DNA from: an uncultured Myxococcales bacterium
GTDB taxonomy: Bacteria > Myxococcota_A > Polyangia > Polyangiales > Polyangiaceae
NCBI GenBank assembly: GCA_937902985.1
Contig: CALFNG010000205.1
Coordinates: 1-64,000 of the forward strand
Length of the DNA stretch: 64,000 nt
Direction of reading: 5' to 3'
Of this stretch, positions 53,171 through 63,807 are shown piece by piece. A program made the translations under genes and the position numbers. The notes below the pieces were generated by a model that did not search any database, was not told where the DNA came from, and saw only the letters and a list, made by a program, of their open reading frames with translations. The number at the start of each line of letters is the position of its first letter. The stretch's first letter is position 1.

Positions 53171-53260
53171 TTTGGCAAGCCAATCGTCGGCGGCGTAGCT
53201 CCTTCGACTCCCTCGAGGAGCCCGTCGATCAACGGCGCGACCCGATCGGCTCGCCTGAAA

Positions 53261-53596
53261 GACCCGTCCCTCAGCGAACCAGACCAGTCGGCTCGCCCGA
53301 GAGACCCGTCCCTCAGCGAACCAGACCAGTCGGCTCGCCCGAGAGACCCGTCCCTCAGCGAAGTAGCCCGATCGGCTCGTCTGAGAGACCCGTCCCTTAG
53401 CGATGTAGCCCGGTCCGCTCGCCTGGGAGACGCGTCCCTCAGCGAAGCCGCCCAGTCGGCTTGCCTGAGAGACGCGTCCCTCAGCGAAGCCGCCCGATCG
53501 GCTCGCCTGAGAGACGCGTCGCTCAGCGAAGCCGCCCAGTCGGCTCGCCTGAGAGACGCGTCGCTCAGCGAAGCCGCCCGATCGCCTCGCCTCGGA
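53261..53596. repeat. 42-bp tandem array, 8 phase-locked units plus degenerate flanking copies
   Basis: Units start at 53261, 53303, 53345, 53387, 53429, 53471, 53513, 53555; consensus GACGCGTCCCTCAGCGAAGCCGCCCRRTCGGCTCGCCTGAGA. Confidence 0.96.
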
Positions 53597-53759
53597 GACA
53601 CGTCGCTCAGCGAAGGCGGCCCGCGCCTCAGCGGAGCCGATCGCCCGGTCAGCGCGAGCCATCACCCTACCCCGCCGAAGGATGCGGGCCTTGGCGAAGC
53701 TCGTGAATCTCCCGGCGCAAGAGACCCGGTCACGAGCGAAGCCGACCGCTCTGCGAGCA

Positions 53760-54500: not shown

Positions 54501-55415
54501 TCACCGCGCGATCAAGGCCTTCTCTTCTTGCCCGAGCGCCCCGATGGCCTCGAGGCACCGCTCGGCGAGCGCGCGGTACGTCTTCGGGCCGCCGGGCCTC
54601 TGGAGCAGCGCCCCGAAGTCGACCGGGGCGCCGAACACCATGTGGATCGGCGTGCCGCGGCCGGTGATGCCGCCGCGAACCTGCGCGACGAGGTCGTTGC
54701 CCAGGCCATTCACGAAGACCGGGACGACGGGCACGCGCGCCTTGTGAATGACGCGCCCGACGCCGCTCTGGGCCGGGAGGAACGTGTAGGGGTCGTCGTC
54801 TTTCTTGCGGGTGCCTTCGGGGTGAAGCCCGACGAAAAATCCGCCCCTGCGGAGAAGCGCGGCCACCTCGTCGAGGCTCGCGAGGTTCAGGACCGCCCGG
54901 CTACGCTCGCGAAAGATGGGGGGGTACATCGCGAAGAAGCTCATCGCGCCGTTCACGAAGGGCCCGAGCGGGTTGTCGTAGAAGAACGTCGACCGCACCG
55001 GGAAGAGAATGCGGTGCGGCAATCCGCGGGCGACGAGCTCGGCGGCCGTGACGTAGAGGTCGAAGAACGAGCGATGGTTCGAGACCAGGATGACGCTCTT
55101 CGCGTCGCCCCAGGCGGGCAGGCGCTCGAGGCCGTGCACGTTCCGCAGCCTGGCGGTGGCGGTGCGGATCCACCATTGCCCGACCGTGCGCTGGAGCGCG
55201 CGGATGCCGTCGTCGAGGAGCCCCGGCTCGAGGCTCGCCCGAACGAGGCGAATCTGCGCCCGCTCGAGGCGCGAGAGAGACGACTCTCCGAGCTCGAGGA
55301 GATCGTGGTCGCTCGCCTCACCGGGCGCGTCGCCGGGAGGCCGACCGGGGCGAGGGGGCCCCTCGGACCGAGAGCGGCGCGAATGGGCGCCGAGGTGGAA
55401 ATTGGAGGTACTCAT
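54501..55415 (-). CDS. PlsC-family 1-acylglycerol-3-phosphate acyltransferase
   Basis: SVILVSNHRSFFDLYVTAAEL (NHx4D); FFVGLHPEGTRKKDDDPYTFLPAQSGVGRVIHKARVPVVPVFVNGL. Confidence 0.88.
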   Translation of the reverse strand: MSTSNFHLGAHSRRSRSEGPPRPGRPPGDAPGEASDHDLLELGESSLSRLERAQIRLVRASLEPGLLDDGIRALQRTVGQWWIRTATARLRNVHGLERLPAWGDAKSVILVSNHRSFFDLYVTAAELVARGLPHRILFPVRSTFFYDNPLGPFVNGAMSFFAMYPPIFRERSRAVLNLASLDEVAALLRRGGFFVGLHPEGTRKKDDDPYTFLPAQSGVGRVIHKARVPVVPVFVNGLGNDLVAQVRGGITGRGTPIHMVFGAPVDFGALLQRPGGPKTYRALAERCLEAIGALGQEEKALIAR

Positions 55416-55463: not shown

Positions 55464-56186
55464 GTGGACAATAGCCAGGCCTCAGTGCCAGCCAGCTTTT
55501 TCGACGTCGACGGCACCCTCGTACATACGAACCTGCTGCACCCGACTGTCTTCTACCTGACGAATCAGCCGAACCCCCTCCGGAGCCTCGGCGCCCTGGC
55601 GCGCGCGGCCCTCGGCGGGCCCCGGATGGTCCTCGCGGAGCTGGTCGATCGCCGGCGGTTCAACGAGCTCCTGTTCGCGAACTACGAGGGCATCTCGAGC
55701 GACCGCCTGCTGACCCTCGCGGACGAGGCCTTCGACTCCGTGATGAAGCGCGCCGTCTATCCCGGCGCGCGCGACCTCGTGCAGCGCTGCCTGGGCGAAG
55801 GGCACGACGTGGTGCTCGTCTCGGGGGCGCTCGACTTCTTGATGGAGCGGCTCGCGCGCCACCTGGGCGCGACCGCCGTCATCGCCAACCGCCTCGACTT
55901 CAAAGACGGCTACGCGACCGGCAAGGTGCTGCGGCCCATCGTGGCCGGCCCGGAGAAGGCGCGCCTCGTTCGCGAGTGGGCCAGGGACCACGGCCACGAC
56001 CTCGGCGACTGCTTCGGATACTCCGACAGCTACTCCGACGTGCCCATGCTCTCGGTCGTCGGCCACCCCTGCGCCGTCAACCCCGACTATCGCCTGGCCA
56101 AGCTCGCGCTGACCTATTCCTGGCCGGTCATCCACCTCGGTAAGAGGCCCGCCGTGGAGTCTCGCATGCTGGAGCGCCTTCCATGA
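55464..56186 (+). CDS. HAD-IB family hydrolase (phosphoserine phosphatase-like)
   Basis: SFFDVDGTLVHTNLLHP; VVLVSGALDFLMERLARHLGA; GDCFGYSDSYSDVPMLSVVGHPCAVNPD. Confidence 0.88.
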   Translation: MDNSQASVPASFFDVDGTLVHTNLLHPTVFYLTNQPNPLRSLGALARAALGGPRMVLAELVDRRRFNELLFANYEGISSDRLLTLADEAFDSVMKRAVYPGARDLVQRCLGEGHDVVLVSGALDFLMERLARHLGATAVIANRLDFKDGYATGKVLRPIVAGPEKARLVREWARDHGHDLGDCFGYSDSYSDVPMLSVVGHPCAVNPDYRLAKLALTYSWPVIHLGKRPAVESRMLERLP

Positions 56187-57895
56187 CCACCCCGTCGTCG
56201 TCCGGACCGAAACCGCCGCAGCACGCGGTGGCCGTCACGTTGCCGGTTCGAGTCAAGAGCCTCGAGACCCCTGCCCCGCCGTCGTCGCCGGCGCTGGTCT
56301 CGCGCGCGCGCGGGCGCGCCGACCATCCACTGGTGGTCACGATCGACAAGCGAAGCGCGGCGCGAAGCGTCTTCAGCGGCGACACCGTGCTCGAGGTCGA
56401 GCTGCCCGTGGGCTCGCGCGTCATCTACCCGCGGCCGCCCATGGAGGCACTCAAAGACGTCGCGGCGGCCGTTCGCTACGCATGCAACCACCCGCTGAAG
56501 AGCGACCCGCTGCACGCGAAGCTCCGCCCGGGCATGAAGGTCGTCATCGCGATCGACGACGTCTCGGTGCCCCTCCCGAGCATGCGCCGGCCCGACGCCC
56601 GCGAGCAGGTCCTCACCGTCGTTCTCGAGCTCCTCGCCGATCACGGCGTCGAGGACGTCGAGATCATCATCGCCACGTCGATCCACCGGCGCATGACCGC
56701 GGCCGAAGTGCGCCACGCCGTGGGCGACCGCATCTTCGGAGCCTACTGGCCCGACCGCCTCTACAACCACGACGCCGAAGATCCCAAGGGCATGAAGACC
56801 CTCGGCACCACCGAGCACGGCGAGGTCGTCGAGATCAACCGGCGCGCCGCGGAGGCCGACCTCCTCATCTACGCGAACGTGAACATGGTCCCCATGAGCG
56901 GCGGCCACAAATCCGTGGCCGTCGGCCTCTGCGGCTACGAGAGCCTGCGCGCGCACCACAACCCGCGCGTCATGCGCGACTGCTGGTCGTACATGGACCC
57001 GGCGTCGAGCGCGCTCGCGACGAGCATCGAGCGCATGGGGCGCCTCGCGGAGAAGGCGCTCGACGTCTTCCACATCGAGACCACGATCAACAACCGCATG
57101 TTCGACGCGCCGCTCTCGTTTTTTCACAAGAGCGAAGACGACTGGACCGGCGGCGAGCGCGCGGCGTTCAAGGGGCTCGCCTTCACGCTCTCGAAGCTGC
57201 CGAGCGCCGCCCGGCAGGCAATCTTCCAGCGCGTTCCCTCGCCCTACGGGGTCACCGGCGTCAACGCCGGCGAGTGCGAAGCCGTGCACGAGAAGACCCT
57301 CGAGAAGAGCTTCGCGCAGTACCTCGTGCCGGTAGTCGGGCAGTGCGACGTGCTCGTCACGGGCATTCCGTACATCAGCCCGTACAACGTCAACTCGTTC
57401 CTGAACCCGCTGCTCGTGCAGGTGATGGCGCAGGGATACCTCTTCAACTTCTACAGGGGGGCGCCGCTCGTCAAGAAGGGGGGCACGATGATCGTCTTTC
57501 ATCCGTGCACCGACCAGTTCGACAAGGAGCACCACGCTCCGTACATCGAGTTCGTGCACGACGTGCTCGCGCAGACCCGCGACGCCGCCGAGATGCACCA
57601 CAAGTTCGAAGAGAAGTTCGCGAGAAACCCGGCGTACGTCGAGTTGTACCGGAAGGGCCACGCGTACCACCCGGCCCACCCCTTTTACATGTGGTACTGG
57701 GGCGAGGCCGGCCGCCAGCACCTCGGGCGGGTCATCGTCGTCGGCGCAGACAACGACTACATCCCGAAGCTCCTCGGCTGGGAGACCGCGCGAACGTTCG
57801 CCGAGGCCCTTGCGATGGCCAAGGGCTCGAAGCGCGACCCGGAGATCACCATGCTTCACGTGCCGCCGATCGTGATGGCGGACGTCACCGTGTGA
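56183..57895 (+). CDS. LarA/DUF2088-like (lactate racemase N-terminal domain superfamily) protein
   Basis: RPGMKVVIAIDDVSVPLPSMRRPDAREQVLTVVLELLADHGVEDVEIIIATSIHRRMTAAEVRHAVG...LLIYANVNMVPMSGGHKSVAVGLCGYESLRAHHNP; ATGA overlap with upstream HAD gene. Confidence 0.7.
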   Translation: MTTPSSSGPKPPQHAVAVTLPVRVKSLETPAPPSSPALVSRARGRADHPLVVTIDKRSAARSVFSGDTVLEVELPVGSRVIYPRPPMEALKDVAAAVRYACNHPLKSDPLHAKLRPGMKVVIAIDDVSVPLPSMRRPDAREQVLTVVLELLADHGVEDVEIIIATSIHRRMTAAEVRHAVGDRIFGAYWPDRLYNHDAEDPKGMKTLGTTEHGEVVEINRRAAEADLLIYANVNMVPMSGGHKSVAVGLCGYESLRAHHNPRVMRDCWSYMDPASSALATSIERMGRLAEKALDVFHIETTINNRMFDAPLSFFHKSEDDWTGGERAAFKGLAFTLSKLPSAARQAIFQRVPSPYGVTGVNAGECEAVHEKTLEKSFAQYLVPVVGQCDVLVTGIPYISPYNVNSFLNPLLVQVMAQGYLFNFYRGAPLVKKGGTMIVFHPCTDQFDKEHHAPYIEFVHDVLAQTRDAAEMHHKFEEKFARNPAYVELYRKGHAYHPAHPFYMWYWGEAGRQHLGRVIVVGADNDYIPKLLGWETARTFAEALAMAKGSKRDPEITMLHVPPIVMADVTV

Positions 57896-57908
57896 GCGAG
57901 GCGCGGCG

Positions 57909-60900
57909 ATGGCGAACGGAACCCTGACGCCCGGCAGCACGCACGCGCCGCCCGGCCCCGGCGACAGCCCCGCCGGCGCGCGCACGCAGCCGCCGGTGCT
58001 CGACGTCGCGCACGTCTTTCGCGGAGCGCACCTCGTCATCCTCGGCGGGACCGGGTTCCTCGGGAAGGTCTTCTGGGGGATGCTCCTCGATCGCTATCCC
58101 GAGGTCGAGCGCGTCTATCTCGTCGTCCGGTCGAAGGCAGGCGCGACGCCCGCGGCGCGCTTCTGGAACGACATCGCGACGAGCGAGGCGCTCGGCCCGC
58201 TGCGGCGCACGCACGGCGAGCGTTACAAGGAGTTCCTTCGCGAAAAGATCGTCCCCATCGACGGCGACATGGGGCGACCCCTCTGCGGCCTCGACGACGC
58301 GCTCGTCCGCGAGCTCGCGGGCACGATCGACGCGGTGATCAACGTGGCCGGCGTGGTCGATTTCAACCCGCCGCTCGACGCGGCGATCGGCGCGAACGCC
58401 TTCGGGGCGCAGAACCTCGTCGCCCTGGCCCGTGCGCTCGGCACGGCCGACACGCGCGACTCGACCGGCTCGGCGGGCGCGAAGGCCCGACGCGCCGCGA
58501 TCTTCCATACGAGCACGTGTTACGTGGCGGGCCGGCGCGACGGCCCCATCTACGAAGAAGACCCGCGAGAGCATCCGTTCCCGCGCTCCGACGAACTCGG
58601 GGCCGACGCGTGGGAGCCGGAGCGCGAGATCGCCGAGTGCCTCGACCTCGTCGAGCAGGCGAAGCATCGCGCCGACGACGCGTTCCGCCAGAGCGAGTTC
58701 GCCGAGGCGGCGCGCAAGAGCCTCGCGTCGCGCGGCGAACCGGTGGAGGGCCCTGCGTACGACGACGAGTTCGGGCGCGTGAAGCGCCGGTTCGTCGCCG
58801 AGCGCATCATCGAGGGGGGCCTCGATCGCGCGACGCACTGGGGCTGGCCCAACATCTATACGTACACCAAGGCCATCGGCGAGCAGATCATCGCCTCGAG
58901 CGGCGTCCCCTTCACGATCGCGCGCCCGGCGTGCTGCGAGTCGTGCCTCGAGTTCCCGGAGCGCTCGTACAGCGAAGGCATCAACACGAGCGCCCCCCTG
59001 CTCTACCTGATGATGAAGGGCCAGGTGCAGATCCTGGCCAAGCACGTCCCGCTCGACCTCATCCCGACCGACTACGTCGTGGCTGGGATGATCCTCGCGC
59101 TCGCGGAGCTCGTCGAGGGCACGGCGGCGCCCGTCTACCAGTTCGGCGCCAGCGACGTGAACCCGTGCTCGGCGCAGCGCTTCGGCGAGATGGTCGGGAT
59201 GTACAAGCGCAAGTACCTGCAGCGCGGCGGCAGCGGCAGCCCGTTCCAGGCCGCGCTCGCCCGCGTCGCGTCCCGCGTCGAGCCGAGCTTCGTCGACCGC
59301 GCGCGGTTCGATCTCGTCGGGCCGCCGGCCCTCGCGAAGGCCGCGCGCGGCCTCGCGTCGCTCATGCGCGGCGCGTCGCCGGCGTTCGCCCCCGTGGCCA
59401 AAGCCCTCGAGAGCACCGCCTACCGCACGGCCAAGATCGCCGAGATCCAGCGCCTCTTCGAGCCCTTCAGTTCGAAGCTCAACGGCCCCTTCGACTGCTC
59501 CAACACGCGCGCCGCGTTCGCCCGCGCGACGGACGCAGACAAGGCCAGGCTCCGATGGGCGCCCGAGTCGATCGACTGGCTCGACTGGATGATGAACATC
59601 CACATGCCGGCCATCGAGAAGCGCGTCATCCCGGAGATGGACCGGCGCCTCAAGAAGGAGCCGCGACCCCTCACGGCGCACACGACGATCGTCTCGATGG
59701 TCGAGCAGATGGCGACGCGCCACGATCTCGCCCTCGCCCTGCAGCAAGTCACCGCCGACGGCCTGACGCGAACGACGTTCCGCGACGTGAAGCGCGGCGC
59801 CGACGCGATGGCCGCGCGCCTCGCGGCCGTCGGCGTGACCAAAGGCCAGCGGGTCGTCCTCGCCGCGCAGAGCCACCCCGACTGGGCGGTCGCGTACTTC
59901 GGCATCGTCCGCGCAGGCGCCGTGGCCGTGCCGATCGACCCGGCGCTCGACGCCCTCGGCTGGCGGAGCATCCTCGCCGAGAGCGAAGCCTCGGTGGTCG
60001 TCTGGGACGAAGCCGTCCCCGGGCGCGACGCGATCAGCGCCGCCCACCCGGAGCTCGTTCCGCTCGACCTGCGGGCGGCGGTGCTCGCCGACGACTCGCT
60101 CGCACCGCCCGACGTGGCGATCGCGCCGGGCGACGTCGCGAGCCTGCTCTTCACGAGCGGGACCACCTCGCGCCCCAAGGGCGTCATGCTGACGCACGCG
60201 AACTTCACGTCGCTCGTCGCCGGGCTCGCGCCGATCTTCCCGCTGTCGCGCGGGGACGCGGTGCTCAGCGTGCTCCCGCTCCACCACACGTTCGAGTTCA
60301 CGTGCGGCCTCCTGCTGCCTCTCTCGCGGGGCGCGCGGGTCGTCTACGTCGGCGAGCGCACCGGCGAGGGGATCAGCGAAGGGCTGCGCGCCGCCCGCGC
60401 GAGCGCGATGGTGGGCGTGCCCGCGCTCTGGCAGCTCCTCGAGCGGCGCATCTTGCAGCAGGTCGACGCGAGCGGCCCGATGGCGCGCGCGGCGTTCGAC
60501 GCGGCCACGGCGGCCAACGCGTGGCTCTCGACGAACCTCGGGGTCGACGCCGGGCGCGTGCTCTTCGGCGCGGTCCACGGCCACCTGGGCGGTCAGATGA
60601 AGTGGCTCATCTCGGGCGGCGCCGCGCTGCCGCGCGAGACGCAGGAGCTCTTCTTCGGGCTGGGGCTCCGGCTGACGCAGGGGTACGGCTTGACCGAGGC
60701 GGCTCCGGTCCTCACCGTGACCCGGCCCGGCGCGCGCCTCGAAGCCGGCGTCGGCAAGCCGGTCCCGGGCGTCGAGCTGCGCATCGACGACGCCGACGAC
60801 CGGGGCGTGGGTGAGGTCATCGCGCGCGGCGCCAACGTGATGGTCGGGTACACCGATCCCGGCGCCACCCGCGAGGCGATCGACGCCGAGGGCTGGCTGC

Positions 60901-62651
60901 ACACGGGCGACGTCGGTCGCATCGACAAGAAGGGCCGGCTGGAGATCCTCGGGCGCGTCAAGGACGTGGTCATCGCGCCCAACGGCGAGAACGTCTACCC
61001 CGACGACGTCGAGCGCCGCCTCGGAGCGGTGCCGAACGTCGACGAGCTCGCGGTCGTCGGGGTCGACGTGCGCGGAGCCGAGCGCCTCGCGTGCCTCGCG
61101 GTGCCTTCGCGCGGCGACGACGCCTCGCCGCGCGGCGATCGGAGCGACCGCGCGCGCGTGTCGCTCCGCGCCGCCATCGAGGGCCTCCCGCCCGCGCAGC
61201 GGCCCGCGATCGTGCATCTCTACGCGGCTCCCCTGCCTCGCACCGCGACGCGCAAGGTCAAGCGCGACGACGTCCGCGCCATCCTCGCTCGCCTCGTGGC
61301 GGCGAGCGCGCGGCCCGAGAACGGCGCGGGCGACCTGAGCCCGGCGCGGGCCGCCATCGCCGCCGTCAGCGGCGCGCCGGTCGACTCTATCGGGCCCCAC
61401 ACCAGCTTGCAGGGCGAGCTCGGGTTCGACTCGCTGCTCCTGACCGAGCTGCTCGAGGCCCTCGAGACGCGCTTCGGGCCCGTCGACGCGCAGCGCCTGC
61501 AAGCCTGCGTGACGGCCGCCGACGTCGACGAGCTCGTCGCGGAGCTCGGGCGCGCGCCGGTCGAGCGCGCGGCCCCGCCCGACCGACCGCGAGTGCCCGC
61601 GGCGCCGATCGTGTTGCCCGAGCCGGTTCAAGACTTCGGCCGTGCGCTCCTCGGCAAGGCGCAGGACTTCTTCTATGGCGAGGTCATGAAGCCCCGCGTC
61701 TACGGCCGCGCGCACATCCCGCACAACCGGAACGTCATCGTCGTCGCGAACCATGCGAGCCACCTCGACATGGGCCTCGTCCGCCACGCGCTCGGCCGGT
61801 ACGGCGAAGACATCGTGTCGCTCGCGGCGCAGGACTACTTCTTCGAGAACCGCCTCAAACGCGCGTTCTTCGAGAACCTGACCAACCTGCGCGCGATCGA
61901 CCGCAAGGCGTCGCTCCGGCAGTCGATCCGCCAGGCGAGCGACCTCCTCGAGCGGGGCAAGACGCTGCTCGTCTTTCCCGAGGGCACGCGCGGCAGCTCG
62001 GGCGACGTGCAAGAGTTCAAGCCGCTCGTCGGCCACCTGTCGATCGCGAACGGCGTGGATCTGCTGCCGCTCTACCTCGGCGGCACGCACGCGGCGATGC
62101 CGAAGGGCTCGCCGGTGCCCATCAAGCGAGCCGTCCTCGCGCGCATCGGGCCGCCTCTGTGCGTCGCCGACCTTCGCCGCTTGACCGCCGAGATGACGCC
62201 CGCCGACGCCGCTCGCGAGGTCGCGCGGATCGCGCACGCCGCGGTCGTGGCGCTCCGCGACGGGCAGGTGCTCGACCTGGCCCGCGCGGAGAGCGCCGAC
62301 CTGGCGGTCGATGCCGAGAACCCGCTCATCGACCTCTTCGCCGAGCTCGAGACCAAGTTTCGCGCCGGCGAGGTCGAGAGGCCCGTCAGCTACTACGTGT
62401 CGCTCGGGAACGACGACCTCGCGAAGTGGACCGTGCGCGTGGACGCCGCCCGGTGCGACGTGCGCCCCGGCAGACCGCAGGGCGGCGAGGCCGACTGCGT
62501 CCTCAAGACGAGCCCGGAGATCTTCGCCAAGATCGTGCGCGAGGCGTACGTGCCGAGCCCCGCCGACTTCATGTCGGGGGTCTTCAAGTCGAACGACGTC
62601 GCGCTCCTCATGACGTTCCAGCGGGTCTTCCATCTGGACCAGGCGTCGTAA
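57909..62651 (+). CDS. Multidomain lipid megasynthase: fatty-acyl-CoA reductase - AMP-dependent acyl ligase - acyl carrier domain - PlsC acyltransferase - SCP2-like (ElbD-like)
   Basis: VILGGTGFLGKVFWGMLLDRYPEVERVYLVVRSK and YTYTKAIGEQII (NAD-binding reductase); LLFTSGTTSRPKGVMLTH, GYGLTEAAPVL, GWLHTGDVGRIDKKGRLEILGRVKDVVI (ligase); LGFDSLLLTELLEALE (phosphopantetheine site); NVIVVANHASHLDMGLV and VFPEGTRGSSG (PlsC); C-terminal VLKTSPEIFAKIVREAYVPSPADFMSGVFKSNDVALLMTFQRVF (SCP2-like). Confidence 0.9.
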   Translation: MANGTLTPGSTHAPPGPGDSPAGARTQPPVLDVAHVFRGAHLVILGGTGFLGKVFWGMLLDRYPEVERVYLVVRSKAGATPAARFWNDIATSEALGPLRRTHGERYKEFLREKIVPIDGDMGRPLCGLDDALVRELAGTIDAVINVAGVVDFNPPLDAAIGANAFGAQNLVALARALGTADTRDSTGSAGAKARRAAIFHTSTCYVAGRRDGPIYEEDPREHPFPRSDELGADAWEPEREIAECLDLVEQAKHRADDAFRQSEFAEAARKSLASRGEPVEGPAYDDEFGRVKRRFVAERIIEGGLDRATHWGWPNIYTYTKAIGEQIIASSGVPFTIARPACCESCLEFPERSYSEGINTSAPLLYLMMKGQVQILAKHVPLDLIPTDYVVAGMILALAELVEGTAAPVYQFGASDVNPCSAQRFGEMVGMYKRKYLQRGGSGSPFQAALARVASRVEPSFVDRARFDLVGPPALAKAARGLASLMRGASPAFAPVAKALESTAYRTAKIAEIQRLFEPFSSKLNGPFDCSNTRAAFARATDADKARLRWAPESIDWLDWMMNIHMPAIEKRVIPEMDRRLKKEPRPLTAHTTIVSMVEQMATRHDLALALQQVTADGLTRTTFRDVKRGADAMAARLAAVGVTKGQRVVLAAQSHPDWAVAYFGIVRAGAVAVPIDPALDALGWRSILAESEASVVVWDEAVPGRDAISAAHPELVPLDLRAAVLADDSLAPPDVAIAPGDVASLLFTSGTTSRPKGVMLTHANFTSLVAGLAPIFPLSRGDAVLSVLPLHHTFEFTCGLLLPLSRGARVVYVGERTGEGISEGLRAARASAMVGVPALWQLLERRILQQVDASGPMARAAFDAATAANAWLSTNLGVDAGRVLFGAVHGHLGGQMKWLISGGAALPRETQELFFGLGLRLTQGYGLTEAAPVLTVTRPGARLEAGVGKPVPGVELRIDDADDRGVGEVIARGANVMVGYTDPGATREAIDAEGWLHTGDVGRIDKKGRLEILGRVKDVVIAPNGENVYPDDVERRLGAVPNVDELAVVGVDVRGAERLACLAVPSRGDDASPRGDRSDRARVSLRAAIEGLPPAQRPAIVHLYAAPLPRTATRKVKRDDVRAILARLVAASARPENGAGDLSPARAAIAAVSGAPVDSIGPHTSLQGELGFDSLLLTELLEALETRFGPVDAQRLQACVTAADVDELVAELGRAPVERAAPPDRPRVPAAPIVLPEPVQDFGRALLGKAQDFFYGEVMKPRVYGRAHIPHNRNVIVVANHASHLDMGLVRHALGRYGEDIVSLAAQDYFFENRLKRAFFENLTNLRAIDRKASLRQSIRQASDLLERGKTLLVFPEGTRGSSGDVQEFKPLVGHLSIANGVDLLPLYLGGTHAAMPKGSPVPIKRAVLARIGPPLCVADLRRLTAEMTPADAAREVARIAHAAVVALRDGQVLDLARAESADLAVDAENPLIDLFAELETKFRAGEVERPVSYYVSLGNDDLAKWTVRVDAARCDVRPGRPQGGEADCVLKTSPEIFAKIVREAYVPSPADFMSGVFKSNDVALLMTFQRVFHLDQAS

Positions 62652-62657
62652 AGGGCG

Positions 62658-63641
62658 ATGCGAATGAAATACCTCGTCACCGGCGCCACGGGCTTTCTCG
62701 GTACGCACCTCACGACGGCGCTCGAGGCGTACGGCCACGACGTCGTGCGCTTCGCGCGCTCCACCGGCGGCGACGTGCTCGACGGCGCCAGCGTCCGCGC
62801 GGCGGCGGCAGGGTGCGCCGGCGCCTTCCACTGCGCCGGGGTCGTGTCGCGCAAGCCGGCCGACGCCGAGGAGCTCTATCGCGTGCACGTCGGCGGCACG
62901 AAGAGCGTGCTCGACGCGTGCGAAGCGGCGGGCGTGGCGCGCGTCGTCCTCGCGTCGACCAGCGGCACCGTGGCCGTGAGCGAGAGCGCGGAGACCCTCG
63001 GCCGCGAAGATGACGAGGCGCCCATCGGGCTCGTCGGGCGCTGGCCCTACTATCGCGCGAAGCTCTTCGCCGAGCGCGCCGCGCTCGCGCGGAGCAGCGC
63101 CCGACTCGAGGTCGTCAGCGTCAACCCGAGCCTGGTCCTCGGCCCGGGCGACGTGAACGGCTCGTCGACCGAAGACGTGCGCCTCTTTCTCGAGGGCGCG
63201 ATCGCCGCCGTCCCCGCCGGCGGCCTCTCGTTCGTCGACGTACGCGACGCCGTCGAGGCGATGCGCCTCGCGATGGAGCGCGGGCGACCCGGCGAGCGTT
63301 ACCTCGTCGGCGCCATCAACCTCACCGTCCGCGATTTCTTCGCGAAGCTCGCCCGCATCTCCGGCGTCCGCGCGCCGTGGCTCCCCTTGCCTCGCTCGCG
63401 CGAGCTCGCACGAACGGGCGCCGCCTGGGTCGACCGCCTGGCGACGCGCGCCGGCTTCCGCGCGCCCGTCGATCCCGTCTCCGTCGAGATGGCCCAGTGC
63501 TTCTGGTACCTCGACTCCACCAAGGCCGAGACCGAACTCGGTTGGACCGCCCGCGACCCCAACGCGACCCTCCACGACACCGTCGAAGATCTGCGGCGAC
63601 GCGGCGTCGTCTGGCCTCGAGCCAGCGCCGGCGTCGCGTGA
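62658..63641 (+). CDS. NAD(P)-dependent epimerase/dehydratase (extended SDR, dihydroflavonol-reductase-like)
   Basis: YLVTGATGFLGTHLTTALEAYGHDVVRFAR; RVVLASTSGTVAVS; YYRAKLFAERAAL (YxxxK); VNPSLVLGPGD. Confidence 0.87.
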   Translation: MRMKYLVTGATGFLGTHLTTALEAYGHDVVRFARSTGGDVLDGASVRAAAAGCAGAFHCAGVVSRKPADAEELYRVHVGGTKSVLDACEAAGVARVVLASTSGTVAVSESAETLGREDDEAPIGLVGRWPYYRAKLFAERAALARSSARLEVVSVNPSLVLGPGDVNGSSTEDVRLFLEGAIAAVPAGGLSFVDVRDAVEAMRLAMERGRPGERYLVGAINLTVRDFFAKLARISGVRAPWLPLPRSRELARTGAAWVDRLATRAGFRAPVDPVSVEMAQCFWYLDSTKAETELGWTARDPNATLHDTVEDLRRRGVVWPRASAGVA

Positions 63642-63663: not shown

Positions 63664-63807
63664 GAGATTGGCCGCAGAGGCGCAGAGCAGTGATCGGGGT
63701 CGAAGACTCGCGACGTGCGCTGCGAGTGCGCGCAGCGTGCGCAAAACCCTCTGTCCTCTGCGCCCTCTGCGCCCTCTGCGCCCTCTGCGCCCTCTGCGGC
63801 CAATCTC
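63664..63807. repeat. Inverted-repeat element: GAGATTGGCCGCAGAGGCGCAGAG ... CTCTGCGCCCTCTGCGGCCAATCTC, with 9-bp CTCTGCGCC tandem repeats in the right arm
   Basis: Left arm 63664-63687, right arm 63783-63807 (reverse complement with one extra base); tandem CTCTGCGCC from 63756. Confidence 0.92.

Follow-up and report, generated by a model that had tools for sequence, protein, structure and literature searches.

The closest described relative of the gene cluster at positions 55464-63641 of the window (the whole stretch of 64,000 nucleotides from an uncultured Myxococcales bacterium that was analysed here) is the elb ether-lipid operon of Myxococcus xanthus. This operon consists of elbA, which encodes a short-chain dehydrogenase/reductase (SDR), elbB, which encodes a HAD-family protein, elbC, of unknown function, elbD, which encodes a fusion of fatty acyl reductase (FAR), acyl-CoA synthetase (ACS), acyl carrier protein (ACP) and acyltransferase (AT) domains, and elbE, which encodes a further SDR (PMC9131029, a 2022 review). 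In elbD mutants most of the vinyl and alkyl ether lipid is lost and the i15:0 aldehyde is missing; in elbE mutants ether lipids are reduced, elbA is dispensable and the effect of elbB has been ascribed to polarity (PMC9131029). The ACS and ACP domains of ElbD were active in vitro, and the FAR and AT activities were undetected (PMC9131029). The known ether-forming enzyme, alkylglycerone-phosphate synthase (AGPS, MXAN_1676 type), is a flavin adenine dinucleotide (FAD) enzyme of another fold that is encoded outside the elb operon. In M. xanthus the part played by its homologue is small (PMC9131029), which leaves the formation of the ether bond in the elb pathway unexplained.

A second group of described proteins that bears on this locus is the LarA superfamily, the racemases of which have two catalytic His residues and handle the nickel-pincer nucleotide (NPN) cofactor. 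In groups 14 and 15 of the LarA homologues (LarAH) the second catalytic His is absent; four cofactor residues are common to single-His proteins and ordinary LarA (PMC12611868). It has been proposed that proteins such as those of groups 14 and 15 could catalyse another hydride-mediated reaction (PMC7583248). In the present analysis the cluster was identified as the myxobacterial elb operon elbB-elbC-elbD-elbE of a Polyangia-type myxobacterium, an ordinary copy of a known cluster, and its ElbC protein was placed in the LarA superfamily. Our joint reading, to which we assign a probability of roughly 0.78, is that of an elb operon in which ElbC is an NPN-carrying, one-faced hydride-transfer enzyme that is core to the pathway. 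Among the main texts, mostly of open-access papers, that the literature search covered, none connects ElbC with LarA or NPN.

An ElbC alignment scan of named bacterial genomes returned no fewer than 576 relatives, and 80 loci were retained. M. xanthus itself is not among these 80, and two other Myxococcus loci, L148 (M. dinghuensis) and L152 (Myxococcus sp. CA023), were used in its place. The order SDR-HAD-ElbC-ElbD-SDR (elbA-B-C-D-E) is common to both, elbE thus lying downstream of elbD in Myxococcus too. The four genes elbB-C-D-E recur in identical order across Myxococcota and Acidobacteriota, so that their arrangement is not a matter of chance. Furthermore, in 86 of 99 related loci elbB immediately precedes elbC, at a distance of <1.5 kb, and in many Polyangia the elbBC pair is separated from elbDE. 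The window shares with the elbA-E locus of M. xanthus (Lorenzen et al. 2014, as reviewed in PMC9131029) the elbB-C-D-E order, the protein families and an ElbD clade supported at 100/100. It differs in having no elbA, with a divergent PlsC gene standing upstream instead, in the SCP2 domain carried by its ElbD and in a genome without a CarF homologue. elbA is not essential to defining the elb operon. Since both the gene order in Myxococcus and the family assignment match, the published elbC of 'unknown' function is the LarA-like gene.

Judged from phylogeny, architecture and gene order, the fusion protein of the window is an ElbD orthologue. It contains FAR (NAD_binding_4, 138 bits, amino acids ~46-590), ACS (AMP-binding, 242 bits, 600-1125), ACP (PP-binding, 37 bits, 1147-1205), AT (Acyltransferase, 68 bits, 1262-1389) and SCP2 (~1498-1574) domains, and its motifs are intact: GGTGFLGK and YTYTK in the FAR, TSGTTSRPKG in the synthetase, the carrier serine in GFDSLLL, and NHASHLD and FPEGTRG in the acyltransferase. 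A maximum-likelihood tree of the synthetase domain places it within a clade of Myxococcus and acidobacterial ElbD (100/100), separate from all synthetase paralogues. One full-length ElbD homologue each was found in the genome of the window, Myxococcus, Polyangium and Minicystis, the next matches being plain acyl-CoA synthetases, and the window protein is 42% identical to ElbD of Myxococcus dinghuensis. ElbD carries the SCP2 domain in the lineage of the window and in a number of further myxobacterial lineages; the Myxococcus and acidobacterial proteins, and some related ones, have none. Those sampled that lack the domain group in one nested clade (100/99) of the midpoint-rooted tree, which on that rooting fits a single loss. 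A preliminary description of this DNA had proposed an ElbD-like fusion in an ether-lipid operon and had held that a fusion branching outside the ElbD clade would speak against this. The branching inside that clade, the FAR-ACS-ACP-AT architecture and the gene order, which agrees with that of L148 and L152, bear the proposal out. The HAD, LarA-like and SDR genes were there called extra components; since the products of elbA-E in M. xanthus are an SDR, a HAD protein, the 'unknown', ElbD and an SDR, all three are instead the standard elb genes elbB, elbC and elbE. We agree that the roles of these partners are largely open, that of the LarA-like one being the most interesting.

ElbC is a strict, core partner of ElbD. 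Of 237 Myxococcota genomes that are at least 85% complete, 68 encode true ElbC and 68 encode ElbD, with 67 genomes encoding both; the two cases that break the pairing (G290 and G262) are at contig ends. The two genes sit side by side in 49 genomes and apart in 18, so that the co-occurrence is not merely an inherited neighbourhood, and no ElbC occurs in nine genomes that have different, shorter FAR proteins. At L069 (4568-9998, genome G072, of the same family as the window) elbB is accompanied by an ElbC-like protein, P0006, that is without the NPN residues (290 bits against a cut-off of 740), and by an ElbD-like protein with a FAR and a very divergent synthetase (1006 amino acids) and no recognisable ACP or AT. 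On its predicted proteins, this locus is an elb operon that has decayed or been repurposed, a natural counter-example in which loss of the NPN residues goes with a decayed ElbD. Separately, a record labelled Cyanobacteria RYN_339 (L109, 10001-11557) holds a full ElbC and an elbB-like gene, with no ElbD in a stretch that stops 0.8 kb past ElbC; a tblastn match in L109 that was taken as ElbD is placed by the tree among ordinary ACS paralogues.

ElbC of the window, Myxococcus, Acidobacteria and Polyangium scores above the cut-off of the NCBIfam family NF052592 (LarAH14/15/16), with 819 bits for the window and 847 bits for Myxococcus against 740. The AlphaFold model of ElbC is confident (pLDDT 93), and its closest folds in the PDB are the single-His LarA-like structures 9q3k and 9q3j (TM 0.85 by target), followed by lactate racemases. 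Residues D126, H168, K243 and H259 correspond to D72, H108, K184 and H200 of LarA. In a census of 44 ElbC sequences, drawn almost wholly from Myxococcota and Acidobacteriota, these positions, namely the ribose-binding Asp, the first catalytic His, the NPN-linked Lys and the Ni-binding His, are invariant.

The means of making the cofactor are present alongside ElbC. The genome of the window encodes LarB and LarC, which are adjacent (L001), and LarE, all over curated cut-offs. LarC is encoded by 67 of the 68 genomes with ElbC and by 26 of 26 whose sole Lar_N protein is ElbC, compared with 70 of 130 that lack any LarA; it was also found in 19 of 19 ElbC genomes reached via the named loci (Acidobacteriota, Myxococcota and one labelled Cyanobacteria). 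A larC-larE-larB cluster is divergent from the elb operon at L040 (2292-5246), ~80-120 bp from elbB, and another, likewise divergent, stands beside it at L192 (4176-7074) with one dihydroorotase (PyrC) gene in between. In each of these two genomes, which represent two genera of one family in the same class as the window, ElbC is the only Lar_N protein detected.

Several observations weigh against the joint reading. The second catalytic His (H174 of LarA) is missing in all 44 ElbC sequences, in which the loop YxNxNxVPM(D/N)GGHK has no His before GGHK, and LarA Arg75, which binds both the phosphate of NPN and the carboxylate of the substrate, is replaced by Leu, Val or Met throughout. LarC is not confined to genomes with a LarA, 70 of the 130 that lack one encoding it too (counts that ignore phylogeny), and the placing of larC-larE-larB next to elb at L040 and L192 may be one event, both genera belonging to one family. 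The genome of the window holds further Lar_N matches, so that its lar genes may serve proteins other than ElbC. The ElbC-ElbD counts ignore shared ancestry, although the pattern nonetheless spans many families. PMC9131029 gives no elbC mutant phenotype. The genome of the window also encodes an AGPS homologue (L158, 775-2964, C217) with an HHHGVG motif, the best PDB match of which is the alkyldihydroxyacetonephosphate synthase 2uuu. Finally, Black Sea metagenome-assembled genomes of Pontiella contain ElbD homologues, yet cultured Pontiella of that sea have no detectable ether lipid (PMC11868695).

The missing His and Arg would suit an ElbC that is a cofactor-free relative of LarA with a structural or chaperone role, or that acts without NPN, in an otherwise ordinary elb operon. 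A group 14 LarAH from Frankia was inactive in all tested activities and group 16 was considered not to bind NPN (PMC7583248), which is in keeping with such a protein. However, the invariance of the covalent Lys, the Ni-binding His, the catalytic His and the ribose Asp is hard to explain without a cofactor, lar genes adjoin elb at L040 and L192, and the copy that is without the NPN residues, P0006, accompanies a decayed ElbD; we therefore regard a cofactor-free ElbC as unlikely. ElbC is probably an NPN-dependent enzyme with a single catalytic His, and not a hydroxy-acid racemase, as far as its sequence and predicted fold indicate. The missing second His is the reason for not filing it as a LarA racemase, and a hydroxy acid is an improbable substrate because the Arg that holds the carboxylate is lost. 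The occurrence of LarC without a detectable LarA family member in ~70 Myxococcota genomes suggests either unrecognised NPN users or another role for LarC.

ElbC differs in these respects from each of its described relatives. With the two-His LarA racemases it shares the Lar_N domain, the fold and the NPN-handling residues, and it departs from them at the second His and at Arg75. The single-His enzymes of Blautia wexlerae and Streptococcus plurextorum (9q2u, 9q3k and 9q3j; PMC12611868) are closest in solved fold, keep the four cofactor residues and have likewise lost the second His; however, ElbC is only ~20% identical to them, and where they have Lys at the Arg75 site and a context of sugar genes, ElbC has Leu, Val or Met and a lipid operon. 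The name of NF052592, 'NPN-dependent hydroxyacid isomerase, LarAH14/15/16 family', presumes a hydroxy-acid isomerase, whereas ElbC is without the carboxylate Arg and the second His and is tied to a lipid operon.

In the reading of an elb operon with an NPN-carrying ElbC, we infer that ElbC bears the cofactor, that the pathway needs ElbC, what ElbC acts on and what ElbB, ElbE and the SCP2 domain do; together these would form the following scheme. In ElbD, the ACS would activate a fatty acid, the protein's own ACP would carry it, the FAR would reduce it to the aldehyde or alcohol and the AT would acylate a glycerol backbone, while the SCP2 domain probably holds or passes on a greasy intermediate. 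ElbE would serve in carbonyl reduction and ElbB in phosphate removal. ElbC would use NPN to move a hydride off and back onto a single face of a secondary alcohol, most simply the C2-OH of glycerol, and its substrate would probably be a glycerol-type lipid precursor. The CarF/PEDS1 desaturase (PF10520) was not found in the genome of the window, which is 96% complete (the Myxococcus positive control scored 205 bits). Because of this, the product is expected, as far as gene content can tell, to be a plasmanyl (alkyl) lipid and not a vinyl-ether lipid (plasmalogen).

The same residues could serve a different end, in which ElbC is an epimerase for the sn-2 centre of a glycerol (phospho)lipid, or for a hydroxy acid attached later, carrying out a one-way, stereo-inverting step that forms no bond. 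We hold this to be rather unlikely, since the lost carboxylate Arg speaks against a hydroxy-acid substrate and no lipid of inverted sn-2 configuration is known to us from elb organisms, even though one-way epimerisation has been suggested for single-His LarA proteins (PMC12611868) and the stereochemistry of the neutral ether lipid TG-1 of M. xanthus is written as racemic (PMC9131029). Doubt may also fall on the product itself, which might be another alcohol-linked compound, such as a wax ester, a fatty alcohol or a glycolipid, in place of glycerol alkyl ethers. Wax esters are also possible from FAR, ACS and AT, and an ElbD homologue is no guarantee of ether lipids (PMC11868695); nevertheless, the orthology of ElbD and the whole gene set match a locus whose M. 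xanthus mutants lose ether lipids, and a product of that other kind seems to us quite improbable. Equally doubtful is a bolder idea, argued from chemistry alone, that ElbC supplies the ether-forming step missing from the ElbD pathway, or makes that step possible. Here NPN would remove a hydride from the C2-OH of a substrate of the 1-acyl-glycerol-3-phosphate type to give a transient ketone, which would let the fatty alcohol from ElbD displace the sn-1 acyl group, as in the chemistry of AGPS, before the same hydride was returned on one face.

The features of the locus are collected in Table 1. The reading frames, strands, overlaps and gaps that the preliminary description had given for the HAD, LarA-like, fusion, SDR and PlsC genes were all recovered at the same coordinates, and every domain that it had assigned to these five genes scored above its Pfam cut-off.

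Table 1. Genes and domains of the elb locus of the window, with the divergent neighbouring gene.
Feature	Positions	Strand	Basis and remarks
elbB, HAD-IB family phosphatase, 240 aa	55464-56186	+	PF12710 132 bits; TIGR01490 139 bits (cut-off 98)
elbC, LarA-superfamily protein, 570 aa	56183-57895	+	Lar_N PF09861 136 bits; NF052592; ATGA overlap with elbB
elbD, FAR-ACS-ACP-AT-SCP2 fusion, 1580 aa	57909-62651	+	Pfam; 13-bp gap after elbC
SCP2 lipid-transfer domain, C-terminus of ElbD	62259-62648	+	PF02036 24.4 bits (cut-off 21.3)
elbE, extended SDR, NAD-dependent epimerase/dehydratase family, HpnA-like, 327 aa	62658-63641	+	Epimerase 107 bits; 6-bp gap
PlsC-family acyltransferase, divergent, neighbour only	54501-55415	-	PF01553 62 bits; 48-bp gap to elbB

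In translation, the HAD motif FDVDGTL of ElbB and the SDR motifs GATGFLG and YYRAK (YxxxK) of ElbE are intact. The divergent upstream position described for the PlsC gene stands, but its membership in the unit does not, as it is not a conserved neighbour: as a candidate fifth member of the operon it was rejected, adjoining elbB only in a same-genus genome (L035/L111) and once in L103 (40% identity). A scan for promoters and terminators and an Rfam search at the locus gave no result. Two tandem repeats flank these genes. A 42-bp unit occurs in ~9 copies (alternatively 126 bp × 3) at 53241-53623, upstream of the PlsC gene, and a 9-bp repeat, CCTCTGCGC, occurs in 4.9 copies at 63747-63798, ~100 bp past elbE. 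An operon resembling MXAN_1674-1676 was considered around L158; no FAR, AT or SDR match was found within L160, and for this reason only the AGPS-like gene is claimed there.

The elb genes bear on more than one question of lipid biology. In M. xanthus the light-induced carotenoid colour depends on plasmalogens, and elb genes, which also occur in Acidobacteriota, have been discussed as a source of the ether bond in bacterial membrane lipids that serve as climate proxies (PMC10087280, PMC11868695). The operon of the window is itself of an already known kind; what is new is ElbC as the strict partner of ElbD and a probable nickel-pincer enzyme. If ElbC did prove to form or enable the ether bond, it would be a nickel-organometallic, redox-neutral counterpart of the flavin-dependent AGPS and the first NPN enzyme beyond hydroxy-acid and sugar-acid isomerization. 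ElbC stays strictly with ElbD and retains the full set of cofactor residues of an organometallic nickel enzyme, yet lacks features required of a hydroxy-acid racemase, a combination that points to NPN being put to a new use in lipid synthesis.

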